Shown: in pieces, positions 9,417-50,841 of the stretch
How positions within the stretch are numbered: the stretch's first letter is position 1
Layout of the letters: each line of letters opens with the position of its first letter
Assembly (NCBI RefSeq): GCF_009696675.1
Contig: NZ_VULN01000002.1
Location: forward strand, 1-64,000
Length of the DNA stretch: 64,000 bases
Direction of reading: 5' to 3'
Source: Acidaminococcus fermentans
GTDB taxonomy: Bacteria; Bacillota; Negativicutes; Acidaminococcales; Acidaminococcaceae
The notes under the pieces: model-generated
The model's input: only the letters and a program-made list of their open reading frames with translations
Database searches by the model: none
What the model was told of the DNA's origin: nothing
Made by a program: the position numbers and the translations under genes

Positions 9417-10306
9417 GAAAAGAGCGTGGACCGGTAACCGTCAAGACTGTGGGCCGATATCGGGTGGGGGATGTGTGCGAGATGACCGTGGCCCGTGTGG
9501 GGGAAGCGGGAGCTTTCCTGGATGCGGGCACCGGCAGCACCTCCGATGACATCCTGCTCCACCAGCACCAGCAGACCAGCCCGGTGAAGGTGGGAGACAA
9601 GGTGAAAGTGTACCTGTACCTGGACGCCAAGGGCCGGATGACCGCCAGCATGAAGCTGCCCAAAATGCGGGAAGGCCAGCTGGGCTATGTAAAGGTCCTG
9701 TCCGTCACCCGCCAGGGGGGCTTTGTGGACATCGGCGCCGAACGGGGGGTATTCCTGCCCTACAGCGAAATGCGGGGCCATGTGTCTCCGGGTCAGCTGG
9801 TATGGGTGAAGCTCTACCGGGACAAAAGCGGCCGGCAAGCGGTGACCATGCGGGTGGAAGAGGACATGGTCCGGGCTTCCGTGCCTGCCAAAGATGTGAA
9901 GGTGGGGGATGAACTCACCGGCACCGTCTACAACATCCTGCCGGAAGGGTTCTTCCTGCTGACCACCCAGCGGTATCTGGCCTTCATCCACCGGAGCGAA
10001 GTGCCTGACGGACGGCTGGACTTCGGTCAGAAGGTCACCGGACGGGTCACCTTCGTCCGGGAAGACGGCCGGGTGGACATGTCCCTCCGGGAAGTGAAGG
10101 AAAAAGCCATGGTCACCGACAGCGAACGGATCCTGGCCCTCCTGGAAAAACGCCAGGGCACCATGCCCTACAGCGATGCCACCCCGCCGGAAATCATCAA
10201 AGACGCCTTCGGCATTTCCAAAGCCGCTTTCAAACGGGCCCTGGGGCGCCTGATGAAGGAAGGGAAGATCACCCAGGAAAACGGGTGGACCAGTCTGGTG
10301 AAGTAA
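9413..10306 (+). CDS. cvfB: CvfB-type S1 RNA-binding protein
   Basis: The 297-residue protein contains consecutive S1-like OB folds. The first (residues about 15-70) has VGRYRVGDVCEMTV, the second (about 75-140) has GYVKVLSVTRQGGFVDIG, and a third OB fold follows (GDELTGTVYNI). It ends in a winged-helix segment (ISKAAFKRALGRLMKEGKI). This is the architecture of CvfB, an RNA-binding regulator of virulence genes in staphylococci. Its role here is unknown. The start overlaps the rsfS stop. A weak hairpin at 10353-10372 may end the operon. Confidence 0.85.
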   Translation: MRKERGPVTVKTVGRYRVGDVCEMTVARVGEAGAFLDAGTGSTSDDILLHQHQQTSPVKVGDKVKVYLYLDAKGRMTASMKLPKMREGQLGYVKVLSVTRQGGFVDIGAERGVFLPYSEMRGHVSPGQLVWVKLYRDKSGRQAVTMRVEEDMVRASVPAKDVKVGDELTGTVYNILPEGFFLLTTQRYLAFIHRSEVPDGRLDFGQKVTGRVTFVREDGRVDMSLREVKEKAMVTDSERILALLEKRQGTMPYSDATPPEIIKDAFGISKAAFKRALGRLMKEGKITQENGWTSLVK

Positions 10307-10324
10307 GGGAAGCTGCGCTTTCCG

Positions 10325-10372
10325 CCAATGGTCAATTGTCAATGGCCGAGGGAAGCCTGCTGGCACAGGCTT
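10325..10372 (+). repeat. Dispersed intergenic repeat, copy 1 (heptad block plus hairpin)
   Basis: CAATGGTCAATTGTCAATGG then CCGAG (10325-10349), followed by hairpin AAGCCTG / CAGGCTT (10353-10372). Similar blocks occur at 20465, 20681, 27498 and 61713. Confidence 0.6.
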
Positions 10373-10404
10373 TGAACGGTTTTTCAAAACCATGAAAAAA
10401 GTTG

Positions 10405-10433
10405 TTGACAGGAAGCCCTTTTGGGGGTATACT
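10405..10433 (+). promoter_or_regulatory. Promoter of tRNA-Ala
   Basis: Consensus -35 TTGACA (10405-10410), a 17-bp spacer and -10 TATACT (10428-10433), ending 13 bp before the tRNA. Confidence 0.85.
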
Positions 10434-10446
10434 TAAGAAGTCGTTT

Positions 10447-10530
<84 letters not shown>

Positions 10531-10534
10531 GTCA

Positions 10535-10572
10535 GTACCCATGCGGGTTTGCACCGCATGGGTACTTTTTTT
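10535..10572 (+). terminator. Terminator of tRNA-Ala supplied by the element
   Basis: A perfect 12-bp stem GTACCCATGCGG / CCGCATGGGTAC with a 7-nt loop and a run of seven T. It lies inside the element, so it replaces the chromosomal terminator now beyond attR. Confidence 0.9.
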
Positions 10573-10616
10573 GTTTATCAAGTTTAGCGTAAGGGAGACC
10601 TTATAGTAACCCTTAT

Positions 10617-10670
10617 GAAAAAACAGGACAGAAAGTTGAATGGATAAAAAACTTTCTGCCCTGTTTTTTT
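10617..10670. terminator. Bidirectional hairpin at the 3' end of the repressor gene
   Basis: A 17-bp stem with one mismatch (10621-10637 with 10650-10666), A-run on the left and T-run on the right. It probably ends the repressor transcript. Confidence 0.75.
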
Positions 10671-10690
10671 ATGCATTTATTTATGTAGTC

Positions 10691-11302
10691 TTATAACAAA
10701 GCGTTTAAATCATAGACCGGAAGTGCGGGATTTTCCCATATCTTTTTATTGTTTTTATCAAATTGTATGGCAAAGGACATCTTCTTACGAAATTCCTTAT
10801 CACTGGGAATTTTAAGTGTCAGCAGGAAGGATTTTATCTTCTCGCTCAGGGTAGGATTGTCCCATTCATTACTATGGGCTACATTGCCAACGAAAAAATT
10901 ACGGAAAAAGAGAAGGTTAAATCGATTATCAAGAGTATAAAATTTAGGCTCTTTGCCATTGTAAACATAGTTGACATAATTCTTGATTTCATTAGGCAAA
11001 TTCATAGATTCATTTAAGGCGGCGTATTTTTCAGCTCTGGAAATGGACTCCTCTGAATAAGGCGTATCACTGATACCCATCAGCCAATCAATACTGACCC
11101 CGTAAAAATGATGGATCCTTAATAGAACTTCAAAAGAAGGGCGGGCTCGCCCACTCTCAAGATCGGCTATATTGCTGCGGCTTTTGTATCTTAATAGCAT
11201 AGCTAAATCTTTTTGTGTAATTTTGTACAGTTTCCTTAACAGAATAAATCTATCAGAAAAAAGAGAACCATCATATAGACTAATGTTTTGAGCAATATCC
11301 AT
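10691..11302 (-). CDS. XRE-family repressor of the integrative element
   Basis: A 203-residue DNA-binding protein. Residues about 18-75 form a Cro/CI-type helix-turn-helix (LRKLYKITQKDLAMLL, then SRSNIADLESGRARPS and SIDWLMGIS). The remaining 120 residues, rich in Asn, Lys and Phe, match no domain I recognise. It is transcribed away from the Xis-like gene, with a 132-bp divergent region holding two identical 15-bp palindromes. That arrangement implies it controls excision genes and itself. AT-rich codon use contrasts with the chromosome. Confidence 0.85.
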   Translation of the reverse strand: MDIAQNISLYDGSLFSDRFILLRKLYKITQKDLAMLLRYKSRSNIADLESGRARPSFEVLLRIHHFYGVSIDWLMGISDTPYSEESISRAEKYAALNESMNLPNEIKNYVNYVYNGKEPKFYTLDNRFNLLFFRNFFVGNVAHSNEWDNPTLSEKIKSFLLTLKIPSDKEFRKKMSFAIQFDKNNKKIWENPALPVYDLNALL

Positions 11303-11329
11303 AAAAAACTCCAGTACATAAAAAAAATA

Positions 11330-11358
11330 TTGCGTCGATTAAATCGACGTGATATAAT
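11330..11358 (+). promoter_or_regulatory. Rightward promoter for the Xis/integrase genes
   Basis: -35 TTGCGT (11330-11335), a 17-bp spacer and -10 TATAAT (11353-11358). Operator 1 covers the spacer and the -10 lies within a third palindrome. Confidence 0.65.
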
Positions 11359-11385
11359 CACGTATAGAAGGTCGATTAAATCGAC
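11334..11385. promoter_or_regulatory. Operator pair for the XRE repressor
   Basis: Two identical perfect palindromes GTCGATTAAATCGAC at 11334-11348 and 11371-11385, 37 bp apart, flank another inverted repeat (CGTGAT-ATA-ATCACG, 11347-11361). Confidence 0.75.
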
Positions 11386-11434
11386 TTAAAAATAAATCTT
11401 TAGTTCATTATAACACAGAAAGGAGATTTCAGAC

Positions 11435-11629
11435 ATGGAAAAGAAATTCTTTACGACGGATGAGGTACGGCATGAAGTGTTCAGCGACCAAATCAGCAAA
11501 GGTACTATTTTGACGATGATTCGGGAAAAAGAGATTCCTTCTATCCGTATGCGCAAACGTTTTTTCATTCCGGCGTATTGGGTGAATGAACAGTTTAGAA
11601 TTGCGGAAGGGAAAGAAGGGTTGAAATGA
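11435..11629 (+). CDS. Excisionase-like small DNA-binding protein
   Basis: A 64-residue protein with a winged-helix/MerR-like fold outline: FTTDEVRHEVFSDQISKGT, then LTMIREKEIPSIRMRKRFFIPAYW. Such proteins next to tyrosine integrases usually act as Xis or direct recombination polarity. GGAGA at 11420-11424 precedes ATG 11435. Its stop overlaps the next ATG (11626-11629, ATGA), coupling it to the integrase arm fragment. The function is inferred from size, fold and position. Confidence 0.7.
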   Translation: MEKKFFTTDEVRHEVFSDQISKGTILTMIREKEIPSIRMRKRFFIPAYWVNEQFRIAEGKEGLK

Positions 11630-11787
11630 GAGCAGAGAAAGGAACTGGGACTAAGTATTACGATCAAAATCGCCAGCGGTACGTATTTCGGAAGTACTAT
11701 TATGCGGTAGATGGTACGAAAAAAGAAAAATTATCACCGCTAAAAAACGAAAAGATTTGGATAAAAAAATCCAAGAATGAGAAATGA
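11626..11787 (+). pseudogene. Arm-binding N-terminal fragment of the tyrosine integrase
   Basis: A 53-residue open frame starting MRAEKGTGTKYYDQ and passing through RYVFRKYYYAVDGTKKEK, typical of the Arm-DNA-binding domain of Tn916-type integrases. After about residue 36 the family-like sequence continues in another frame (IITAKKRKDLDKKIQE, 11730-11777). That points to an indel in the A-rich tract 11718-11730. The continuing frame then meets TGA at 11778-11780 where Trp would be plausible. The fragment ends in ATGA shared with the catalytic part, so coupled translation of two chains is an alternative to inactivation. Confidence 0.7.
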
Positions 11788-12851
11788 CTCTGGAGAATGG
11801 ACGAGAGACTTTTTCTACTGTTCTGACTGTTGATGATGTAGTGACGGTATGGATAAACTCAATCCAGACGACCATTAAAAAATCAACCTGTAAATTGTAC
11901 ATGAGCGTGATGAATTCTCATGTTCTCCCAGTTTTTGGCAAGCGGAAGCCGGACACGCTTACAGCTGTGGAAATCCAGTATTGGATTAATAGACTGTTAG
12001 CAAATCCTCTTAGTGCACGGACGTGTAATATAATCCGGTCTACCTGGAGTACCTGCTTTGACTGGGCAGTGGGACAGGGACTGATTCGAAAAAATCCGTT
12101 GCGAGGGGTTAGGGCTCTACGAGATAACCCCAAACCTGTCCGTGCGTTAAACCGAGAAGAACTGAAATGCCTTTTGGATGTGGCAAAAAGTGGGAGGTAT
12201 TATCCTTTCGAACAGAACGATTTTGGAGAATATAGTCAACAAGAAGTGGTAGTTGTGGTGACTTTAGCTGCACGGACTGGGATGCGCAGAGGTGAAGTAT
12301 TTGGACTGCGATGGAATGACATCGATTTTGGGACTGCGACTATACATGTAGTAAATAGTTTAGGCCCAGACCGAGAGTTATCGGCTCCGAAAACACTTAC
12401 CAGTACCAGAAATATTTTAATTGATCCGAATACATTGGATTTATTGAAATGGTGGAAGGCTTACCAGAAAGTGTACATGAAAAATTTCTGTGGAATAACA
12501 GAACATAAAAAAAATTTGGTGTTCACGACTCAGAATGGAACTCCAGTAAGCGTCGATAATTTTCGGTGCCGTCAATGGAAGGCTCTAACGGAAGCTGCTG
12601 GCTTGTCTGGCATAGGTTTTCATTCGCTTCGGCATACTCATGCAACCTTGCTTATCGCAGCTGGGGTTCCTGTGAAGGTTGTCAGTGAGCGTCTCGGCCA
12701 TAAGTCGGTGGCTCTAACCATGAAAGTGTATGTTAATGTACTTCCAACTATGCAGCAAATGGCCGTTGAGGCCATACAGAACATGACGAAAAATGAAAAT
12801 GCCCCATCGGCTGTTGGCGCAGCCGATAAGGGCCAAGGTGACGAAAAATAA
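11784..12851 (+). CDS. int: Tyrosine recombinase/integrase, core-binding and catalytic domains
   Basis: Site-specific recombinase that would join attP with the tRNA-Ala site. The 355-residue frame begins MTLENGRETFSTVLTV, so it includes the core-binding SAM-like domain (residues about 12-100) and the catalytic domain. Catalytic residues are visible: Arg in ARTGMRRGEVFGLRW, the HSLRHTHATLL box, LGHKS and the Tyr in MKVYVNVLPTMQ. The N-terminal Arm domain is separated from it by a frameshift and a TGA. The ATG overlaps the fragment's stop. Whether this chain alone can recombine is uncertain. Confidence 0.85.
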   Translation: MTLENGRETFSTVLTVDDVVTVWINSIQTTIKKSTCKLYMSVMNSHVLPVFGKRKPDTLTAVEIQYWINRLLANPLSARTCNIIRSTWSTCFDWAVGQGLIRKNPLRGVRALRDNPKPVRALNREELKCLLDVAKSGRYYPFEQNDFGEYSQQEVVVVVTLAARTGMRRGEVFGLRWNDIDFGTATIHVVNSLGPDRELSAPKTLTSTRNILIDPNTLDLLKWWKAYQKVYMKNFCGITEHKKNLVFTTQNGTPVSVDNFRCRQWKALTEAAGLSGIGFHSLRHTHATLLIAAGVPVKVVSERLGHKSVALTMKVYVNVLPTMQQMAVEAIQNMTKNENAPSAVGAADKGQGDEK

Positions 12852-12900
12852 TGCACTTCTCCGTCACCCTCCATTCTAAACAATGTAGGAGGGCTTGTAA

Positions 12901-13761
12901 ATGGAAAGACTGAAAAAAAATGAAATCTATATGGAACGATTCATACAAGTTCCATTGGAATTTTTCAAAGACCCGAAATACGCTGACTTGTCTTCGAACG
13001 CAAAACTGATGTTTGGACTTATTAAAGATCGCGTTTGGCTTTCTGAGAAAAATGGGTGGATAAATAAGGAAGGAGACATATTTTTATATTTTACGCAGAA
13101 AAAGATGGAAACTTTGCTTGGAATTGCGCATTGCACCTGTTCAAAAACAATGAAAGAATTGGAGGATCATGAATTGATTGAACGTGTCCGGCAGGGCTTG
13201 GGATTGCCGGATATCATTTACGTCGGGAAAATAGTTCCTAGCCGAATGACATCAAGAAGTACAAAAAACAAACTTCAGGAGTATGGAATTCATATCCCTG
13301 ATGTTCAAAAAACAAACACTAGATATACTGAAGTCATACAAAAAGAGGAAGAAGATAAAGAGAAAAGTTATCCACAGGAACTTTCTTCATTTTCATCGTC
13401 TCTTGATTTCTTTATGAAGAACTTCCATAAACCTGGTCCGTTTGAAGAAAAAAAGATTAATGCAGTAGTCGAAAAATACGGTGAAGAGATTGTCACTAAG
13501 GCTATGGAGGAAGCTGCATTAAAAGGAGTCCTGACAATGAAATATGTTGAAGCAATTCTCAAGAATTGGGAGAAAAATGGTGGCGACAAGAATCCCAATT
13601 CTCCCAAAACCAGCAATCAACATCCAGAATGGTGGACGCCAGAGAAACAAGCCAGAGATGTGGAAGAAATAAAAAAACAAATGAAAGAACTTGGAATACC
13701 CGAGTATCCGGATGAAAAGAGCGGAATTAAAGAAAAAAATGACGGAGGTGTCAAAAAATGA
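12901..13761 (+). CDS. RepA_N-type replication initiator with DnaD-like C-terminal domain
   Basis: A 286-residue protein. Residues about 8-105 form a RepA_N winged-helix domain (FIQVPLEFFKDPKYADLSSNAKL, GLIKDRVWLS, FTQKKMETLLGIAHCTCSKTM). Residues about 180-225 resemble the DnaB_2/DnaD domain (EKYGEEIVTKAMEEA, TMKYVEAILKNWEKNGG). Such proteins start replication of low-copy plasmids and support rolling or theta replication of some integrative elements. AGGAGGG lies at 12888-12894. The end overlaps the next start as ATGA. AT-rich codon use matches the left third of the element. Confidence 0.85.
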   Translation: MERLKKNEIYMERFIQVPLEFFKDPKYADLSSNAKLMFGLIKDRVWLSEKNGWINKEGDIFLYFTQKKMETLLGIAHCTCSKTMKELEDHELIERVRQGLGLPDIIYVGKIVPSRMTSRSTKNKLQEYGIHIPDVQKTNTRYTEVIQKEEEDKEKSYPQELSSFSSSLDFFMKNFHKPGPFEEKKINAVVEKYGEEIVTKAMEEAALKGVLTMKYVEAILKNWEKNGGDKNPNSPKTSNQHPEWWTPEKQARDVEEIKKQMKELGIPEYPDEKSGIKEKNDGGVKK

Positions 13762-14207
13762 AAAAAGAGAGAGATACCAGGACAATAGAAGCGGAAATGC
13801 AAAAAAGGCAAGAGCAGCTAAAGAAAGCCCAGAACGAAATCCGTTCCCTGAATGCGGAACTGACAACCGCTAAGAAACGAGAAAAGGCCCGGCGCTACGC
13901 TGCAATCGGATCCGCCATTGAAAAGATATTAGGTGTCGGTGAGCTGTCAAACAACGATCTGAATGTCCTGATCTATTATCTTGAAAAGCCGTTTCATTCG
14001 GCAGGTGGCTCTCAAACGACAATGGCGGCGAAGTTTTCAGAAGCAATCAAAGCCGAAAGAGCGAAGGTCAGCGCTGCCCCAAATATGGCCTCCAACAGGC
14101 CGGCCAGCGCTGCATCAAAACCAGAGGCCGTCCCATCGGGACGGCAGGGCTTCACCGGAACAGGAAATGGAAGTACGCTTCCATTCCCTTCCCCGGCAAA
14201 GCCCTAA
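13758..14207 (+). CDS. Coiled-coil protein of the mobilization region, function unknown
   Basis: A 149-residue protein I cannot assign to a named family. Residues 1-45 are a strongly charged coiled coil (EAEMQKRQEQLKKAQNEIRSL), followed by a short conserved-looking helix region (AIGSAIEKILGVGELSNNDLN) and a Pro/Ser/Ala-rich tail. It overlaps the initiator gene by ATGA and precedes the oriT-like region and mobC. A relaxosome accessory role is a guess from position. GC rises within this gene, marking a junction between the AT-rich left part and the GC-rich mob part of the element. Confidence 0.55.
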   Translation: MKKERDTRTIEAEMQKRQEQLKKAQNEIRSLNAELTTAKKREKARRYAAIGSAIEKILGVGELSNNDLNVLIYYLEKPFHSAGGSQTTMAAKFSEAIKAERAKVSAAPNMASNRPASAASKPEAVPSGRQGFTGTGNGSTLPFPSPAKP

Positions 14208-40474: not shown

Positions 40475-40511
40475 AAAAGGAGGACAGCTGTACGTACGAC
40501 TGCTGGTATGA
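40475..40511 (+). promoter_or_regulatory. Misplaced strong ribosome binding site and tiny frame before the adhesin
   Basis: A near-perfect AAAAGGAGG (40475-40483) lies 24 nt before ATG 40508, too far for that start. In the gap, CTG 40488 opens a 7-codon frame (LYVRLLV) whose TGA overlaps the ATG as ATGA. Coupled re-initiation is possible but speculative. Confidence 0.3.
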
Positions 40512-42436
40512 CAGGAAGAGGAAAAATAAAATACGGAAAATTCCAAGTGAATCCGGAAGGCGGTAACCGGGACCGGAATTATCTCAATGATGGAGCCAAG
40601 GGAACCGATTCCCTGGCAGTAGGGGCCGGGGCTTATGCCGATGGGACCATGGGGGCAACCGCCCTGGGCAATGATGCCCATGCAGAAGGGGAACGGGCTT
40701 TGGCCGTAGGGAACGGATCCCGGGCCACAGGGTTGGATGCCATTGCCATCGGCACCGGGTCCCAGGGAGAAGCCAATGGCACCAATGCCATTGCCATTGG
40801 GGAACAGAGCCATGCTGTAGGCCTGTACACCACAGCGGTAGGCAGTTATTCCGAAGCCACTGCAGAAGGGGCCGTGGCCCTGGGGCAGCAGGCCAAGAGC
40901 AAAGGGGCATACAGCACCAGCATCGGCCTTATGGCCAACGGCATGTATGAAGGAGGCACGGCCGGGGATCATTCCACCGCCGTAGGCGCCTATTCTGAAT
41001 CTTCCGGACTGGCTTCCACAGCTTTGGGCGGCTTCAGCAAAGCCACTGAGAAATTTGCCACTTCCCTGGGGTATGCCAGTGGAGCCGGCCTGCGGGGGAC
41101 GGCGGTGGGAGCCGCCAGTCTGGCAGAAGGAGAAGGGGGAACGGCTGCCGGTATCCTGAGCCGTGCTGTTGCCTCCGGGTCCGTGGCTCTGGGCATGGAA
41201 TCCGTGGCCGACCGGAAAGCGGGCTGGCAGGGCTACCATCCCGTATACGGCCAGATGGTCGATTCGTCTCCTGCCTGGCAGTCCTCGTGGGGCGCCGTGT
41301 CCGTAGGAGCTGGGCCTCAGGATCAGGATGAAAACGGCAGGCCGATTCCCCAGCGGACCCGGCAGATCATCAACCTGGCTGCCGGCACGGAAGATACGGA
41401 TGCCGTGAACGTAGCCCAGCTGAAGGAAGCCATGAGCGATGCCCGGATCTCCATCCATGCCGGAGAAGGGATCATTGTGGAGAAACGGGGAACGGAATAC
41501 ACCATCAAAGCCAATCTCAACGGATTGAGCAACGAACATGGAACGGTACATATCCTGTCCGACCCCAGTGAGCTTCCCGGCACCCAGGATGAGCCGGAAC
41601 TCAGACCGGCCAGAGCTGCCCTGCGGGCGGTGGCGGAACCGGAAACTGACGACGGAGGTCCGGTCCATGTAGGTTACGTGGCCAACGAGGTGGATTTTGC
41701 CACCGACGATGGGAATACCGCCAAACTCAACGACGGGGGCACCGTCAAGGTACTGGGCGGGGACAACATCCATACGGCTTCCAGTTCCACTACAGTCGAA
41801 AATGGCCGGACTGTGGACAAAATCCACATCCATCTGAAACCGGACATCAAGGTGGACAGTGTGACCATCGGGGAAAAGGGCCCGGTGCTGGATGGAAAGG
41901 GTATGGATATGAAAGGTCTGTCCATTACGGGACTGGCACCTGGTGAAGTGTCGGCTGCCTCTACCGATGCAGTGAACGGCAGCCAGCTTCACGCCACCAA
42001 CCAGATGGTCCAGGAAAATCGGCAGAACATCACCCAGTTGGGGAACTCTCTGAACAAACTGGATGCCCGGGTGAACCGGGTGGGTGCCGGGGCCGCCGCG
42101 CTGGCAGCTCTCCAGCCCCTGGACTTTGATCCGGATGACAAATGGGATTTTGCCGCCGGATACGGCAATTATGCAGGAGCCCATGCCATGGCCATCGGGG
42201 CCTATTACCGGCCCACGGAAGATGTGATGTTCAGTGTGGGAGGCTCCTTCGGCGGAGGCGAGAATATGGTCAATGCCGGAGTCACCTTCAAATTGGGCAA
42301 AGGAGGCAAAGTGACCACCTCCAAGACGGCCATGGCCAGGGAAATCAGCATCCTCCGCAGCAATGTGGAAGAACTGAAAGCCATCGTCAACCGCCAGAGT
42401 GCCCTGATCGATCAGCTGACTGCAAAAGAACGGTAA
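40508..42436 (+). CDS. YadA-like trimeric autotransporter adhesin without a visible signal peptide
   Basis: A 642-residue surface adhesin. Residues about 30-245 are YadA-type head repeats of about 14 residues (SLAVGAGAYADG, TALGNDAHAEG, ALAVGNGSRATG). A neck/stalk follows (AGTEDTDAVNVAQLKEA, then ASTDAVNGSQLHATNQMV). The beta-barrel anchor is at about 530-595 (DDKWDFAAGYGNYAGAHAMA). A 45-residue coiled-coil tail lies beyond the barrel, as often seen in Negativicutes. The N-terminus, MTGRGKIKYGKFQV, is basic and lacks a Sec or ESPR signal. The gap to the next gene is too short to hold one, so the 5' end looks truncated or unusual. Confidence 0.85.
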   Translation: MTGRGKIKYGKFQVNPEGGNRDRNYLNDGAKGTDSLAVGAGAYADGTMGATALGNDAHAEGERALAVGNGSRATGLDAIAIGTGSQGEANGTNAIAIGEQSHAVGLYTTAVGSYSEATAEGAVALGQQAKSKGAYSTSIGLMANGMYEGGTAGDHSTAVGAYSESSGLASTALGGFSKATEKFATSLGYASGAGLRGTAVGAASLAEGEGGTAAGILSRAVASGSVALGMESVADRKAGWQGYHPVYGQMVDSSPAWQSSWGAVSVGAGPQDQDENGRPIPQRTRQIINLAAGTEDTDAVNVAQLKEAMSDARISIHAGEGIIVEKRGTEYTIKANLNGLSNEHGTVHILSDPSELPGTQDEPELRPARAALRAVAEPETDDGGPVHVGYVANEVDFATDDGNTAKLNDGGTVKVLGGDNIHTASSSTTVENGRTVDKIHIHLKPDIKVDSVTIGEKGPVLDGKGMDMKGLSITGLAPGEVSAASTDAVNGSQLHATNQMVQENRQNITQLGNSLNKLDARVNRVGAGAAALAALQPLDFDPDDKWDFAAGYGNYAGAHAMAIGAYYRPTEDVMFSVGGSFGGGENMVNAGVTFKLGKGGKVTTSKTAMAREISILRSNVEELKAIVNRQSALIDQLTAKER

Positions 42437-43596: not shown

Positions 43597-43709
43597 GAAT
43601 ATATCCTCCCACATCATTCACATTTTGTTCATGGGAAAAGTATAGCATACGCATAGGGATTTGGATAATGCAGAAAAACAACCGGTTGCTATAGATTTTG
43701 GGAATAACA

Positions 43710-43744
43710 AAAAAGGCCTGCTGCGCCGGCAGCAGGCCTTTTCT
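43710..43744 (-). terminator. Terminator of the giant activase gene
   Basis: AAGGCCTGCTGC / GCAGCAGGCCTT with a T-run on the minus strand, immediately after the stop codon. Confidence 0.85.
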
Positions 43745-46700
43745 TTAAATCATGATCTCCCTCTTCGCCAGATTCTCGTCGAAGAAGCCTTTTTTCTTTT
43801 CTGCTTTGGGAGCGGGAGCCGGGGCGGCGCTGGTGCGGATGTTCTCCACAAACAGCAGCAGCCGGTTGGTCACGTTCACGTCGCTGACCCCGCTGTCGAA
43901 GTCCAGGCTCAGCAGGTTCATGTGGGGATAGAGGGATTTGATCTTCTTTTCAATCCCCTTGGAGATGATGTGGTTGGCGATGCAGCCGAAAGGCTGGAGG
44001 CTGATCACATTCTCGATGCCGTGCTTGGCGAAGTTCACCACTTCCGCCGGCAGCAGCCACCCTTCCCCGAACTGGGCGGCCATGTTGATGATGTTCTTCC
44101 CGTCGTTGGCCAGTTCGAAAATGTCCTCGATGGGAGTGAAGTATCGGAATTCTTCACCGATCTCGTTGAACTTCTTCACCTGCTTGTTCACCCACATGTA
44201 CAGCACATCGGCGATCACATTGGGCATATGGTGCCGTTCCAGGCCGAATTTCCGGTTGGTGATCCGGTTCACGAAGGCCTGCATGAAGAAGGGTGTCAGG
44301 AGAGGCGGCATCACTTCGATGGAATGCTCCATGAGCCAGCCAGTGATGTTCTTATGGGCGAAGGCGTTGAATTTCAGGTAAATCTCCCCTACGATCCCCA
44401 CCTGGGGCAGCCGCACATCCGGTTTGGCCAGGTCGTTGAATTCCGCCGCCGCTTCCTTCAGCAGCTTCAGAAGGCCGCTGGAGCTGTTGGCTTCGATTTC
44501 CTTCTTGGCCAGATCCAGGTACTTGTCCTTCAGTTCTTCTGCCTTGCCCTTTACGGTTTCCCGGACTACGGAGGCATTGAAGAACTTGGCCAGGCAGTCG
44601 GAGAACAATACGGTGGAAACGGTGATCTTGGCAATCTTCAGCCAGTTCAGTTCAAACCCCGGCTGGTCGTTCTGGATGTTCTTGCTGGTGGCCAGGGACA
44701 GCACCGGGGTGTCCTTGAACCCGGCAGAAATCAGGGCGTGCTTGATGAGACCGAAATAGTTGGAGGCTCGGCACTGGCCGCCGGTCTGGGTAATGGCCAC
44801 AGCCGTGTGGGAGGGGTCGTATTTCCCGGACTGGAGCGCCCGGATAAAGTCCCCCACCACCAGGGTGGCCGGGTAGCATACTTCGTTGTTGGCGAATTTC
44901 AGCCCCAGATCCGCACTTTGGACAGTGCTTTCCGGCAGGGTTTCCACATGGAAGCCTGCATTCTTCATCACCGAAGGGATCAGCGGGGAGATGAAGGGAG
45001 TGAAATAGGGAGCCAGGATGGTGTAGTCCCGCATGCTCTTTTCGAAGCGGGGAGGCTGTTCGAAGGGGGTGGAAGTGAATTTGGCATCCCGGTTGTACCG
45101 GATGCTTTCCACCACGGACCGGACCCGCAGTTTCAGGGAGCCGATATTGGACACATCGTCGATCTTCAGCAGGGTCAGGGCCTTCCCGTGACGCTGGAGG
45201 ATGCCCCGGACTTCGTCCTGGAGGAAGGCATCCGGGCCGCAGCCGAAGGAGGTCATTTCCATAAAGTGGACGCTGTTGTCCTGACGGGCCACCCAGTCGG
45301 CAGCCTTGGAAATCCGGTTGATATAGGCCCACTGGCGGACCAGATAGGAATCATCGATGGTGATGGTGCTGTCATCCCGGACCAGGTCCTCGTTGATCAC
45401 ATTGATGCCCATGGCTGCAATGGATTCGCTGAGTTTGTGCTGGATCAGGGGGTCCGTATGGTAGGGACGTCCTGCCAGCAGGATGGTCAGCTGTTTATTG
45501 TCCCGGCTTTTCCGGAGAATTTCCTCATTCTTTGCCTTGATGGCCCGGCCGTATTCTTCCTGGGCCTTCAGGGCCGCCTTCAGGGCCTTGTCCGCGGTGA
45601 ACCGGTCAAAGCCGATGTAGCTCAGGTATTTCCGAATCTGCTTCTTCAGCAGGGATTCATCCTGGAAGTTGATGGGCGGGGAATCAATGGGGATCTCCGT
45701 GTTCACCACGCTTTTGATCACGTCGGAATAGCCGGAGACCACCGGGCAGTTGTAGCTGTTCAGCTGCCGCTTGTCATCCTGCCGTTCGTAGATCACATAG
45801 GGCATGAAGATCCGGTTCACCCGCTTCCGGATCAGGTTGTTGATGTGGCCGTGGACCAGTTTGGCCGGGAAGCAGATGTTGTCGCTCATCACATCGTGGA
45901 TCCCGCCTTCGTAGTTCTTGAAGGTGGAGGGATCGGACAGCTGGACCTTCAGGCCGCAGGTGGTGAACAGGGCATGCCAGAAGGGATAATCCTCGTAGAT
46001 GTTCAGGCACCGGGGAATCCCGATGACCCGCTGGGCATCCTCGTTTACCGGACGGTCGAAGAGCAGCTTGTATTTGTAGTCGTAGATGTTTTCTCCGGGC
46101 TTGTGGTCTTCCCCGTTGTTGGTGAAGAATTTCTCACATTTGTTCCCGGAATAATAGATGCTGCCGTTGCTGAAGTTGTACTTCTTGATCAGGCAGTTGT
46201 TTTCGCAGCCGTGGCACTGGAGCTGGCTGTCAGTGTAGTTGGCCACATGGATCATGTCATCCAGGGTGGCTTCCCCTTCCGCCCGGCTCCGGGCAAACAG
46301 GGCACAGCCGTAGGCTCCCATGATTTCCGGGATGTTGCTCCGGTGGACAGTGGTGCCGGTCAGCAGTTCGAAGGCCCGGACCACCGCATCATTCTTCATG
46401 GTGCCTCCCTGGAGGACGATGTCGTTCCCCAGGTCATGGGTGTTCTGGAGCTTCAGCACCTTGTACAGGCAGTTCTTGATCACGGAATAGGCCAGACCGG
46501 CGGAAATGTCCCCGATGGTGACTCCTTCCCGGAGGCTCTGTTTTACCTTGGAGTTCATGAACACCGTGCACCGGGTACCCAGGTCGCAGGGTTCCTTGGC
46601 TTCACAGGCCAGTTTGGCAAAGTCGCTGACGGAATAGTTCAGCCCCTTGGCGAAGGTTTCCAGGAAGGTGCCGCAGCCGGAGGAGCAGGATTCGTTCAGT

Positions 46701-48031
46701 TCCATCCGGTTCAGGACCCCGTGGTCCACGAAAATGGCCTTCATGTCCTGGCCCCCGATGTCCAGGATAAAGGAAACGTCCTGGTGGATTTTCCGGGCGG
46801 CCAGATAATGGGCGATGGTCTCGATGATGCCAGTCTTCAGGTCGAAGGCGGCTTTGATCAGGTCTTCCCCGTAGCCGGTGGAACAGCTGCCCAGGATCCG
46901 GGGGTTGGCTCCCACCTTCAGGCATTCTGCATAGAACGCTTCGAAGGCTTCCTGGACGGCGCCGATGGGATTCCCGTTGTTGGGCCCGTAATGGGTGTAC
47001 AGGATCCGGTCTTCCGGGTCCGTAACCACCAGCTTGGTGGTGGTGGAGCCGGAGTCGATGCCCACATAGACTGCGTCGGTTTCCGGGGTGAGAGGGGTCA
47101 GCTGGATGGCGTCCGCTTCCTTGGCCTTTTTCCAGGCGGCATAGTCTTCCGGGGATTTGAAAATGGGAGGCAGGATGTCATCGGACCGGACGGCCACTTT
47201 GGGAGCGCTTTCCAGTTTTTCCACCAGCTGGTCGAAAGTGATGGAAGGAGCGTCTGCCGCACTGAGGGCAGTGCCGTAGGCCGGAATCAGATTGGCGTTG
47301 TCCGGCACCACGAAATTCACATAGGGGATCTGGAGACAGTCCATGAGAGCCTTCCGCAGAGCGGGCATAAAGGTCAAAGGACCGCCGCAGAGCAGGATCT
47401 TGGGCTCGATGGTGCAGCCGTGGCTCAGGGTGGAAATCACCTGGACCGCCACTGCATGGAAAATGGAAATGGCAATGTCTTCCCGGCTCACGTTCTTGGC
47501 CAGCAGGTTCTGGATATCCGTTTTGGCAAAAACTCCGCAGCGGGAAGCGATGTAGTGGACGTGCTGGGCCATTTCCGCCAGCCCGTTCAGCTGTTCGATG
47601 GGAATCCCCAACAGCACAGCCATCTGATCCAGGAAGGCCCCGGTGCCACCGGCACAGTTCCCGTTCATCCGCAGATCACAGCTGCCATCTTTTTTAATAT
47701 ACACGATTTTGGCGTCTTCGCCGCCGATGTCGATCAGGGTGGCCACGTCCGGATATTTGGCTTTGACGAATTTGGTGGCGGCGATGACTTCCTGTTCAAA
47801 AGGAATGTTGAATTTTTCCGCCACCCCCATGCCCACGGAACCAGTGATCTTCAGCTTCAGGCTGGCGGCTCCGATCTGGGAACGCAAAGTCTGCAGTTCT
47901 TCCCGCAAAACGCCAGCCACATTGGCCTGGTGCCGCTTGTAGCGGGAAAACACCACATGGGAATGATTGTCCAGCACGACGATTTTACACGTGGTGGACC
48001 CGATGTCTAAACCTACACGATACGTACTCAT
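43745..48031 (-). CDS. Giant acyl-CoA dehydratase activase fusion (BadF/BcrA ATPase plus reductase-like half)
   Basis: A 1,428-residue protein. Residues about 1-260 form an ASKHA ATPase like the 2-hydroxyglutaryl-CoA dehydratase activator (GLDIGSTTCKIVVLD, DIGGEDAKIV, GGTGAFLDQM). A second such unit spans about 310-570 (GIDSGSTTTKLVV, DIGGQDMKAIF, SGCGTFLETF). A Cys-rich stretch (GCENNC, NKCEKFF) follows. The C-terminal 750 residues resemble DUF2229/HgdB-type cluster proteins, with Cys in ICFPAKLVHGH, SFGCGPDAF, EVCYPATLVVGDF and TGGQCRASNY. ATP-driven low-potential electron transfer is expected; the substrate is unknown. Start 48031 follows GAGG. No partner gene is adjacent. Confidence 0.85.
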   Translation of the reverse strand: MSTYRVGLDIGSTTCKIVVLDNHSHVVFSRYKRHQANVAGVLREELQTLRSQIGAASLKLKITGSVGMGVAEKFNIPFEQEVIAATKFVKAKYPDVATLIDIGGEDAKIVYIKKDGSCDLRMNGNCAGGTGAFLDQMAVLLGIPIEQLNGLAEMAQHVHYIASRCGVFAKTDIQNLLAKNVSREDIAISIFHAVAVQVISTLSHGCTIEPKILLCGGPLTFMPALRKALMDCLQIPYVNFVVPDNANLIPAYGTALSAADAPSITFDQLVEKLESAPKVAVRSDDILPPIFKSPEDYAAWKKAKEADAIQLTPLTPETDAVYVGIDSGSTTTKLVVTDPEDRILYTHYGPNNGNPIGAVQEAFEAFYAECLKVGANPRILGSCSTGYGEDLIKAAFDLKTGIIETIAHYLAARKIHQDVSFILDIGGQDMKAIFVDHGVLNRMELNESCSSGCGTFLETFAKGLNYSVSDFAKLACEAKEPCDLGTRCTVFMNSKVKQSLREGVTIGDISAGLAYSVIKNCLYKVLKLQNTHDLGNDIVLQGGTMKNDAVVRAFELLTGTTVHRSNIPEIMGAYGCALFARSRAEGEATLDDMIHVANYTDSQLQCHGCENNCLIKKYNFSNGSIYYSGNKCEKFFTNNGEDHKPGENIYDYKYKLLFDRPVNEDAQRVIGIPRCLNIYEDYPFWHALFTTCGLKVQLSDPSTFKNYEGGIHDVMSDNICFPAKLVHGHINNLIRKRVNRIFMPYVIYERQDDKRQLNSYNCPVVSGYSDVIKSVVNTEIPIDSPPINFQDESLLKKQIRKYLSYIGFDRFTADKALKAALKAQEEYGRAIKAKNEEILRKSRDNKQLTILLAGRPYHTDPLIQHKLSESIAAMGINVINEDLVRDDSTITIDDSYLVRQWAYINRISKAADWVARQDNSVHFMEMTSFGCGPDAFLQDEVRGILQRHGKALTLLKIDDVSNIGSLKLRVRSVVESIRYNRDAKFTSTPFEQPPRFEKSMRDYTILAPYFTPFISPLIPSVMKNAGFHVETLPESTVQSADLGLKFANNEVCYPATLVVGDFIRALQSGKYDPSHTAVAITQTGGQCRASNYFGLIKHALISAGFKDTPVLSLATSKNIQNDQPGFELNWLKIAKITVSTVLFSDCLAKFFNASVVRETVKGKAEELKDKYLDLAKKEIEANSSSGLLKLLKEAAAEFNDLAKPDVRLPQVGIVGEIYLKFNAFAHKNITGWLMEHSIEVMPPLLTPFFMQAFVNRITNRKFGLERHHMPNVIADVLYMWVNKQVKKFNEIGEEFRYFTPIEDIFELANDGKNIINMAAQFGEGWLLPAEVVNFAKHGIENVISLQPFGCIANHIISKGIEKKIKSLYPHMNLLSLDFDSGVSDVNVTNRLLLFVENIRTSAAPAPAPKAEKKKGFFDENLAKREIMI

Positions 48032-48257
48032 AATGCACCTCATCTTAAAGTGTATTTAATTATAGCACAAATCCCGGAGAACTCCAGTGGTTAATCCAAC
48101 ATAGGGTATGTGGCAGCAGGTCCTGAATGAAACCCTTATCGCAGTGCAGAGTGAAGGGGGCAGAGGATTCCCTCCAAGCCCGGTGTTGGGGGCATAAGGC
48201 CCTGAAAGGATAATTGTGATACAATGACAGAAGACAAAGAAAGGGAAGGAATCCATC

Positions 48258-49106
48258 ATGGGAATTTCAGTAAGGAAACTTCTCCCAGTCTGCCTGGCCG
48301 CCTGGCTGCCGGCGGCTGCCGCCTGGGGATGCACTCTGTTCGGAGCTCAGGGGAGCCGGGTCTTGGGAGGGGGAAGTCTGCTTGTAAAGAATCGGGACTG
48401 GCGGCCGGAATATCAGGAAATGCGGCTGGTCCAGGGACCTTTATACCGGTATTATGGAATCTATGGGGGAGCGGAAAACCATATGGCTCTCAAAGGCGGG
48501 GTTAATGAAGCCGGCCTGGCGGTGTTCTCAGCATCTGCCAGCAGCATCCCGCGAAAGGAACGGCTGGCCATGGGGCCTTGGGGAAAGGGGGCGCTGAAAG
48601 AACTTCTGGGCAGCTGTGCCACAGTAGAAGAGGCGCTGGCCAGGGGTACGGATTTGGGAGGTCCCAAATTCCTGCTGCTGGCAGATGCTTCTGAACTGGC
48701 CTGGGTGGAAGTGGGGGATCATGACCAGGTGGCTGTGCGCCGGGTCAGCAACGGTACCCTTTCCCATACCAATTTTTATCTGAGCCCGGAGTTCCAGCGT
48801 CTGAATCTGAAAGAGGGCGTTTCGGCTCGGCACCGGTACCGCCGGATCGAAGAACTGCTGGCAAGCCAGCAGACCCCGTATGTGTTGGAAGATTTGATCC
48901 GCTTCAGCCAAGACAAGGCGGAAGGACCGGACAACAGCATCTGGCGGCTGGGCAGCCGGCCGGACGGACCTCAGACCCTTGCTGCTTTTGGGGTGTGGCT
49001 GCATCCGGGAGCTCGGCCGGATGTGTTTGTCAAGATCCGCTACAGCCCCGGAGACCAGGGAAGGGAGGATGAGTATCAGCTGGATGGAGAACATTTATTT
49101 CCCTGA
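48258..49106 (+). CDS. Exported Ntn-hydrolase (linear amide C-N hydrolase / C45 family)
   Basis: A 282-residue protein with a signal peptide (MGISVRKLLPVCLAAWLPAA) predicted to be cut before Cys25 in AAAWG-CTLFG. That would make Cys25 the N-terminal nucleophile of the Ntn fold. The following VKNRDW and NEAGLAVFSAS match the choloylglycine hydrolase/acyltransferase-like superfamily. Likely substrates are N-acyl amides such as bile-salt conjugates, N-acyl amino acids or beta-lactam side chains, but none is proven. The cell location is the periplasm or outside. A SpoVB-type flippase follows after 121 bp with no clear terminator. Confidence 0.78.
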   Translation: MGISVRKLLPVCLAAWLPAAAAWGCTLFGAQGSRVLGGGSLLVKNRDWRPEYQEMRLVQGPLYRYYGIYGGAENHMALKGGVNEAGLAVFSASASSIPRKERLAMGPWGKGALKELLGSCATVEEALARGTDLGGPKFLLLADASELAWVEVGDHDQVAVRRVSNGTLSHTNFYLSPEFQRLNLKEGVSARHRYRRIEELLASQQTPYVLEDLIRFSQDKAEGPDNSIWRLGSRPDGPQTLAAFGVWLHPGARPDVFVKIRYSPGDQGREDEYQLDGEHLFP

Positions 49107-49227: not shown

Positions 49228-50841
49228 ATGGAACAGCAAGGACAAACTTCCGGCAACAGCAAGACGAAAAAATTTTTGAAGGGTACTTTGATTCTCACCA
49301 TTTCCAGCATCGTGGTGAAGGTGATCGGGGCCCTGAACTGGGTGATCCTCTCCCGGGTCATGGGGGGCGAAGGCATTGGTCTGTACCAGATGGGCTTCCC
49401 CATCTATCTCATGGCCATCACCGTTTCTTCCGCCGGGATCCCGGTGGCCATTTCCATCATCACCGCGGAAAAAGTGGCCAAGGAGGACTATACCGGGGCC
49501 CAGCGGGTGTTCCGGGTATCCCTGCGGATGCTGTTCTGCACCGGACTGTTCTTCTCCCTGTGCCTGCTGGTGATGGCCAGATGGCTGGTGTCTTCCGGGA
49601 TCATCCCGGATCCCCGGGCCTACTATTCCATCATCGCCCTGGCACCGGCGGTGTTCTTCGTTACCTTCCTTTCCAGCTTCCGGGGGTACTTCCAGGGCTG
49701 GCAGATCATGACTCCCACCGCCTGTTCGGAAATCACCGAGCAGCTGGTCCGGGTGGTCACCATGATCGCCTTTTCCTATCTGCTGATGCCCTACGGTCTC
49801 ACCTATGCGGCAGCCGGGGCCAGCATGGGGGCTGGGGCCGGGGCCCTGTGCGGCCTCCTGCTCCTCCAGGTGTTCTACCTCCGGCTGAAGCACAAATTCT
49901 TCCCCAAAGGGGAACAGAAGGTGCCGGAAGCGGAACAGGAACCGGCCGGGAAAATCATCCGCCGGCTCATCGCCCTGGCCCTGCCCGTATCCATGTCCAG
50001 CCTGATGCTGCCCATTGTGTCCAACCTGGACATGATGATCGTGCCCCGGCGGCTCATGGTGGGAGGCTGGTCCATGTCCGAAGCCACCACTCTGTTCGGG
50101 TATCTCACCGGCATGGCGGTGCCTCTCATCAACATGTCCACCATCCTGACGGCGGCTCTGTCCATCAGTCTGGTGCCTGCCATCAGTGAATCCCGGGTGC
50201 TGGAAGACAGGGAAGGGATCCGGGAAAAAGTGGCGGCGGCCTTCTCCGTGGCGGCGGTAATCACCATTCCCTGCAGCATCGGCCTTCATGTACTGGGAGG
50301 ACGGGTGGCGGCCCTGATTTATAACGCCCCCAAGGCCGGGCCCTCCATTGAGACCATGAGCTGGGCCATTTTCCTCCTGGGGCTCCATCAGGTGAGCACC
50401 GGGATCCTCCAGGGGTTGGGGAAGACCAAGATCCCGGTGATCAATATGATCATTGCGGCGGCTTCCAAAGTGCTCCTGAACTGGAACCTGACCCCCACCC
50501 TGGGAATCGTGGGGTCCTCCTGGGCCACTGTGGCGGATATCGGGATCGCCGCCATCCTGAACCTTTTCTTCATTAAAAAGTACACCGGCTTCTCCCTGGA
50601 ACTGAAGCAGCTGGGAAAAACCGCCCTGGCTGCCCTGGTCATGGGAGCGGCGGTGAAAGGCTTCCTGGCCCTGGTGCCCAACTGGGGTGCCTGGAGCATC
50701 TTGGGCGGCATGGCCGTAGCCATTCCCGTCTACGGCCTCCTGCTCCTGGTGCTGAAGACCATGCCCGAAGAAGAACTGAACCAGATCCCCTTCCTGGGAA
50801 GGAGAATGGTGATGGTGGGGAAGAAACTGAAATTGCTGTAA
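49228..50841 (+). CDS. Oligosaccharide flippase of the SpoVB/MurJ superfamily
   Basis: A 537-residue polytopic protein with about 14 membrane helices. The N-terminal half has GTLILTISSIVVKVIGALNW and RVMGGEGIGLYQMGFPIY, a signature of the SpoVB/PST group. The second half has MMIVPRRLMVGGWSMSEAT and QGLGKTKIPV. Relatives flip lipid-linked sugars such as lipid II. The specific cargo is unknown, and MurJ function is possible. A short cytoplasmic loop (residues about 225-250) separates the halves. AAAGGAAGGG precedes the ATG. Confidence 0.85.
   Translation: MEQQGQTSGNSKTKKFLKGTLILTISSIVVKVIGALNWVILSRVMGGEGIGLYQMGFPIYLMAITVSSAGIPVAISIITAEKVAKEDYTGAQRVFRVSLRMLFCTGLFFSLCLLVMARWLVSSGIIPDPRAYYSIIALAPAVFFVTFLSSFRGYFQGWQIMTPTACSEITEQLVRVVTMIAFSYLLMPYGLTYAAAGASMGAGAGALCGLLLLQVFYLRLKHKFFPKGEQKVPEAEQEPAGKIIRRLIALALPVSMSSLMLPIVSNLDMMIVPRRLMVGGWSMSEATTLFGYLTGMAVPLINMSTILTAALSISLVPAISESRVLEDREGIREKVAAAFSVAAVITIPCSIGLHVLGGRVAALIYNAPKAGPSIETMSWAIFLLGLHQVSTGILQGLGKTKIPVINMIIAAASKVLLNWNLTPTLGIVGSSWATVADIGIAAILNLFFIKKYTGFSLELKQLGKTALAALVMGAAVKGFLALVPNWGAWSILGGMAVAIPVYGLLLLVLKTMPEEELNQIPFLGRRMVMVGKKLKLL

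Follow-up and report, generated by a model that had tools for sequence, protein, structure and literature searches.

A single-chain fusion of two ASKHA ATPase units and a reductase-like half in Acidaminococcus fermentans, a candidate ATP-driven reductase

The fusion gene, its modules and its cysteines

The window analysed is a stretch of 64,000 nucleotides of Acidaminococcus fermentans (NCBI RefSeq assembly GCF_009696675.1, contig NZ_VULN01000002.1, positions 1 to 64,000). Its minus strand carries a gene for a protein of 1,428 residues, in which two ATPase units of the ASKHA activator type precede a cysteine-rich half; the position and length given for it in a preliminary description, made from the sequence alone, were confirmed. 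The product is likely to be a self-contained ATP-driven reductase of the superfamily which includes the 2-hydroxyacyl-CoA dehydratases (HAD), benzoyl-CoA reductase (BCR) and DCCP, with electrons injected intramolecularly into a HAD-like pseudo-heterodimer. The gene and its modules are reported below. Residues are numbered on the 1,432-residue form (P0001), which begins at an in-frame ATG four codons upstream, at 48043; four is to be subtracted for the 1,428-residue form. The ATG at 48031, chosen in the preliminary description, is the better start, since it is preceded by AGGTG at a distance of 4 nt.

43745..48031, minus strand: fusion gene, 1,428 amino acids, module order ATPase-ATPase-C4-COG3580-COG3581 (open, intact reading frame, profile matches and start signals)
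47249..48031, minus strand: ASKHA unit 1, residues 5-265, with candidate cluster cysteines 130 and 169 (TIGR00241; cysteine alignment with HgdC)
46268..47092, minus strand: ASKHA unit 2, residues 318-592, with candidate cluster cysteines 453 and 492 and an extra invariant cysteine, 457 (PF01869; PDB 1hux)
46136..46216, minus strand: C4 site, cysteines 610, 613, 617 and 636 (CxxCxxxC-x18-C), predicted to hold an extra [4Fe-4S] cluster (invariant in 128 of 128 sequences)
45074..46063, minus strand: COG3580/DUF2229 domain, residues 661-990, HAD/BzdN/DCCP-like fold, cysteines 724, 766 and 935 (PF09989, E 1.2e-77; VIA Z 15.4 to 3o3n_B)
43826..45046, minus strand: COG3581 domain, residues 1000-1406, HAD/BzdN/DCCP-like fold, cysteines 1056, 1091 and 1354 (predicted local distance difference test, pLDDT, 92.6; VIA Z 13.9 to 3o3m_D)

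Comparison with Pfam revealed two BcrAD_BadFG stretches and DUF2229, all far above their cut-offs, and TIGR00241 of NCBIfam matched the protein twice, in line with the two BadF/BcrA units first described. The matches to TIGR00241 and PF01869, above the curated cut-offs, and the phosphate motifs DxGSTxxK and DIGGxD, found at positions 13, 105, 330 and 428, place both units among the ASKHA activators (HgdC/BadF/BcrA); unit 2 also matches PDB 1hux with an E value of 2.7e-29. Cysteines 130/169 and 453/492, all invariant, align with Cys127 and Cys166 of the HgdC encoded in the same genome. In HAD-type activators, two cysteines per monomer bind a bridging cluster at the interface (PMC11574389); each unit carries two cysteines of this type, and a [4Fe-4S] cluster is therefore predicted between the units.

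For the C-terminal half, a profile search against PDB sequences matched no solved chain, and fold comparison was therefore used. The model of residues 592-1406 has a pLDDT of 90.5 and a predicted template modelling score of 0.87, and the COG3581 part was also modelled alone. The best VIA match of both domains is HadBC, extending for the COG3580 part over 270 aligned residues at 3.6 Å; it is followed by DCCP and BzdN (Z 14.4 and 14.2 for COG3580, 13.1 and 12.9 for COG3581), while unrelated folds score about 8 in either case. Foldseek comparisons concur for both domains. Both models thus have the fold of the HGD-D superfamily, and the half is, in terms of predicted structure, a pseudo-heterodimer of two HAD-like domains. 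At the sequence level, hhalign related the fused-form profiles of COG3580 and COG3581 to HGD-D weakly (E 9e-7 and 1e-3, respectively). Reductase proteins encoded by separate genes in other genomes (split form, see below) align better; they match DUF2229 and also HGD-D (PF06050, above its cut-off), a sequence-level link between the fusion and the dehydratase family. The union of ASKHA units with an HgdB-like part, proposed in the preliminary description, is therefore upheld both by fold prediction and by split-gene homologues.

Fifteen cysteines are invariant in all homologues having residues at the respective positions (106-128 sequences), a larger set than the "several" initially reported. 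The preliminary description had named a lack of cysteine conservation as grounds for discarding its reading; on this count the reading holds. The fifteen are those listed above: two in ASKHA unit 1, three in unit 2, four in the C4 site and three in each reductase domain. Three is the number expected of a subunit holding a [4Fe-4S] cluster: BzdO binds a single cluster through Cys95, Cys128 and Cys380, while the [8Fe-9S] cluster of BzdN is bound by Cys36, Cys73, Cys100, Cys263, Cys293 and Cys327, six in one subunit (PMC11971306). In the models, the three cysteines of each domain directly precede helices, like the proximal ligands of BzdN; when the split COG3581 is compared by hhalign with DCCP-type proteins, its first cysteine falls on the proximal ligand in CPxIK, and its last on that in QFC. 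No invariant cysteine is found at the distal double-cubane positions in either domain, equivalents of BzdN Cys263 and Cys293 being absent. Since the distal ligands are missing, a single [4Fe-4S] site is predicted in each reductase domain, with no double cubane.

The preliminary description had instead suggested a double-cubane cluster, which would make the protein a DCCP-like enzyme reducing small molecules by means of an [8Fe-9S] cluster. The comparison with double-cubane proteins that it called for did return a DCCP-like fold, DCCP being among the top matches of both domains, and a cysteine of the window lineage, Cys679, lies close to where a distal ligand would be. Cys679 is present, however, in only 17 of 128 sequences, the three invariant cysteines per domain fall short of the six needed per subunit (PMC11971306), and the DCCP-type relatives scanned retain their double-cubane ligands. 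This alternative is thus considered very unlikely, and the cluster type first proposed was abandoned in favour of single cubanes within a self-contained reductase.

Distribution, arrangements and genomic context

Among 299 sampled genomes of the phylum, 273 carry DUF2229, many of them in frames of about 1,400-1,490 amino acids. Within the class, 214 of the 250 genomes searched gave a match to P0001, a count including matches through a single ATPase unit only. A scan of named genomes yielded 80 loci from Bacteroidota, Bacillota, Desulfobacterota, Spirochaetes, Actinobacteria and others; full-length orthologues of about 1,400-1,450 amino acids are spread across anaerobic Bacillota, Bacteroidota and further phyla. 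A shared domain order and 37-96% identity along almost the full length assign the protein to the COG1924-COG3580-COG3581 fusion family (DUF2229, about 1,430 amino acids), whose members are named "2-hydroxyacyl-CoA dehydratase" or "acyl-CoA dehydratase activase" in public records. Being widespread and already annotated, the fusion of about 1,430 residues is the ordinary form of the family in anaerobes and no discovery in itself, contrary to the rarity initially implied.

Three arrangements exist. Besides the full fusion, a two-gene form (L172-L175) combines ASKHA-ASKHA-C4-COG3580, about 1,000 amino acids, with a COG3581 protein of about 430, and a three-gene operon of Bacillota (L164-L170) encodes COG3580, COG3581 and ASKHA (COG1924) proteins of 330, 365 and 325 amino acids. 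The latter has the same modules and cluster cysteines as the fusion, three in each reductase protein; unlike the fusion, it has a single, presumably homodimeric ASKHA unit, and its COG3581 protein is 19-22% identical to the fused domain. The C4 cysteines sit at the C-terminal end of its ASKHA protein, from which C4 is assigned to the ATPase module. The ASKHA gene of the split operon was not found in a further locus, L171. Several of the split operons of L164-L171 directly adjoin spoVA genes (SpoVAD, SpoVAE, GerA/SpoVAF family), so the split form may have a role in sporulation or spores. A fusion subfamily of about 1,350 amino acids (L177-L180) is devoid of the C4 cysteine region and adjoins an ABC-transporter ATPase gene in three loci.

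Identity to the fusion protein is 79-96% within the genus, 63-64% in two genomes from a second genus of the family and up to 56% in Bacteroidales, while the remaining Negativicutes, further genera of this family among them, reach only about 37-40%. In the FastTree phylogeny, the window clade nests inside Bacteroidota, with support of 0.998-1.0 on the enclosing nodes; the topology of an interim maximum likelihood tree (IQ-TREE, computed without bootstraps) agrees. The window genome contains no second DUF2229 gene, and no second fusion was seen in other genomes of the genus in the class-wide P0001 search. Sequence relationships therefore suggest that the native Negativicutes form was probably replaced by horizontal transfer from Bacteroidota. 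Internal TGA codons read as selenocysteine were considered for some orthologues. For the two TGA-bearing ones retrieved, L038 and L039, this was rejected, since each is a frame of 1,423 amino acids running from stop to stop without interruption and aligning to residue 1417, which puts their TGAs at the end of the gene.

In the window, the fusion gene is flanked by signals of its own:

48059..48067, minus strand: promoter-like extended -10 element, TGcTATAAT, upstream of the gene (read directly; consensus match only)
43709..43744, minus strand: rho-independent terminator immediately behind the stop codon (folded RNA with a 16-bp hairpin and a U-rich tail)

The hairpin, missed by a pattern scan and spotted by reading the sequence, folds at -27.6 kcal/mol (z -6.3). 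Given these two signals, the gene is most likely transcribed alone, and it does stand alone as first described: of its neighbours just one, a divergent gene for a SpoVB-like flippase (49228-50841, plus strand), is retained throughout the genus. An AAT/C45-type Ntn-hydrolase with a leader-like N-terminus (48258-49106, plus strand) is found at this place in the closest species only. The same is true of a MetE-like gene adjoining the fusion gene; an operon of the two is ruled out by the intervening terminator and the non-conserved adjacency.

In a survey of 78 named loci, covering six genes on either side, a TetR-type regulator was the sole partner to recur. It adjoins the fusion in 12 loci, 11 of them from Bacteroidota (e.g. 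L052, L071, L075, L079), where it may lie on either flank. The gene is thus solitary in most genomes, which, like its very wide distribution, would suit an electron injector rather than an enzyme acting on a metabolite: a reductive activase that restores some other protein or a cofactor to its reduced state, in the way corrinoid activators serve corrinoid proteins. The MetE-like neighbour could be read in the same sense. That adjacency is limited to the closest species, however, and a plain injector would not need two reductase domains, both complete and fully conserved; this role appears unlikely.

No cluster of CoA-transferase, CoA-ligase or acyl-CoA dehydrogenase genes recurs beside the fusion in the 78 loci. 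This bears on the public annotation, according to which the protein would be a true one-chain 2-hydroxyacyl-CoA dehydratase: HadBC is the best fold match, and three-cysteine, single-cubane sites are predicted in both halves, as in HadBC and HgdAB. In addition to the missing pathway genes, however, HgdA, HgdB, HgdC and GcdA are already encoded together elsewhere in the same genome, just as has been reported for A. fermentans (PMC3035267), so that the fusion is not the activator of the HgdAB pathway. Moreover, the fusion is present in Listeria as well, and Lactococcus has its DUF2229 domain; neither is known for a pathway of the 2-hydroxyacyl-CoA dehydratase type. A dehydratase is accordingly judged improbable, and a self-contained reductase is preferred.

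Proposed electron path and comparison with known systems

Injecting electrons at very low potential at the expense of ATP is uncommon chemistry; examples are nitrogenase, benzoyl-CoA reductase, the dehydratases and DCCP. ATP-driven reduction by the fusion protein itself, as first suggested, remains the best working reading of the data, by analogy with HAD and BCR enzymes, on which the path and chemistry proposed here are modelled. The two ASKHA units would form an intramolecular pair with one [4Fe-4S] cluster at its interface (cysteines 130, 169, 453 and 492), as in the HgdC homodimer. Electrons would enter at this cluster or at C4, a built-in extra [4Fe-4S] site probably serving as entry or relay, and their reducing power would be raised by ATP binding and hydrolysis in the paired units. 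A low-potential electron would then pass from the ASKHA cluster into the HAD-like half, where each domain may hold one [4Fe-4S] cluster. One of these would serve as relay, and a one-electron radical reduction would be carried out by its counterpart, which would have an open iron site. Since no CoA-pathway gene travels with the fusion, an acyl-CoA substrate is not favoured; a general metabolite or non-CoA substrate is as likely.

Three points weigh against this scheme. The N-terminal cysteines of the COG3580 domain were mapped by their position before helices rather than by residue-level structural alignment; the C4 region is modelled with low confidence (pLDDT about 52-82); and no functional study or experiment on any family member was found in the literature searched, which excluded the primary DCCP papers. 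Two reports are linked to the fusion family by annotation only: SMU_438c of Streptococcus mutans is up 2.2-fold under Mn limitation (PMC6952196), and an activase gene of Lactobacillus oligofermentans is preceded by a Rex-like site (PMC4972977).

The closest known systems are HadBC with HadI ((R)-2-hydroxyisocaproyl-CoA dehydratase) and HgdAB with HgdC (2-hydroxyglutaryl-CoA dehydratase), where an ASKHA pair with a [4Fe-4S] cluster likewise feeds a dimer of homologous three-cysteine subunits. The fusion differs from them in being one chain instead of four, in the extra C4 site, in having no CoA-pathway gene neighbourhood and in a C-terminal half without sequence match to a solved chain. DCCP with DCCP-R (6eno, 7yyl) shares the fold and the type of ATPase partner; unlike it, the fusion is not homodimeric and has no distal cluster ligands. 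Class I benzoyl-CoA reductase BzdNO(PQ), with two homologous reductase subunits and two different ATPase subunits, resembles the fusion in its non-identical halves, although both fused domains, unlike BzdN with its [8Fe-9S] cluster, carry proximal-type cysteines only.

A whole candidate machine for ATP-driven electron injection is thus contained in one gene, of a family present in most genomes of the sampled phylum, and a single chain makes expression and structure determination simpler than in multi-subunit relatives. Sharp predictions follow from the cysteine inventory: the reductase half should contain single cubanes, and the ATPase should bear one further cluster site. New are the 15 invariant cysteines, the predicted fold of both C-terminal domains, the modules of the split form, the single-cubane prediction, the putative ATPase-borne C4 cluster and the probable horizontal replacement. 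A more tentative, rather doubtful extension is that the family forms a separate branch of the superfamily, a single-chain reductase with two single-cubane sites and a built-in C4 relay, devoted to one near-universal reduction of a substrate other than a CoA ester in anaerobic bacteria.

Antisense frame and other features of the window

A long open frame runs antisense to the fusion gene:

43661..48010, plus strand: open frame of 1,449 codons, not a gene (list of open reading frames and codon-usage recoding test)

Of its codons, 1,420 fall inside the fusion gene. TTA, CTA and TCA codons amount to one (a TTA) in the 1,432 of the fusion gene, against about 3.3 expected from the usage of twelve window reading frames treated as genes. 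When the gene was recoded 1,000 times with that usage, the longest frame on the opposite strand had a median of 763 codons, reaching at least 700 in 58% and at least 1,400 in 4.4%. The frame is thus a by-product of codon usage, as surmised in the preliminary description, with no sign of a second gene.

Elsewhere in the window, the product of 40508-42436 (plus strand) resembles, as judged by eye, a trimeric autotransporter adhesin, with repeated AxGxxAxA head motifs and a C-terminal anchor. The G+C content of positions 10001-14000 is 0.42, versus about 0.58 around them, and this segment was possibly acquired recently.

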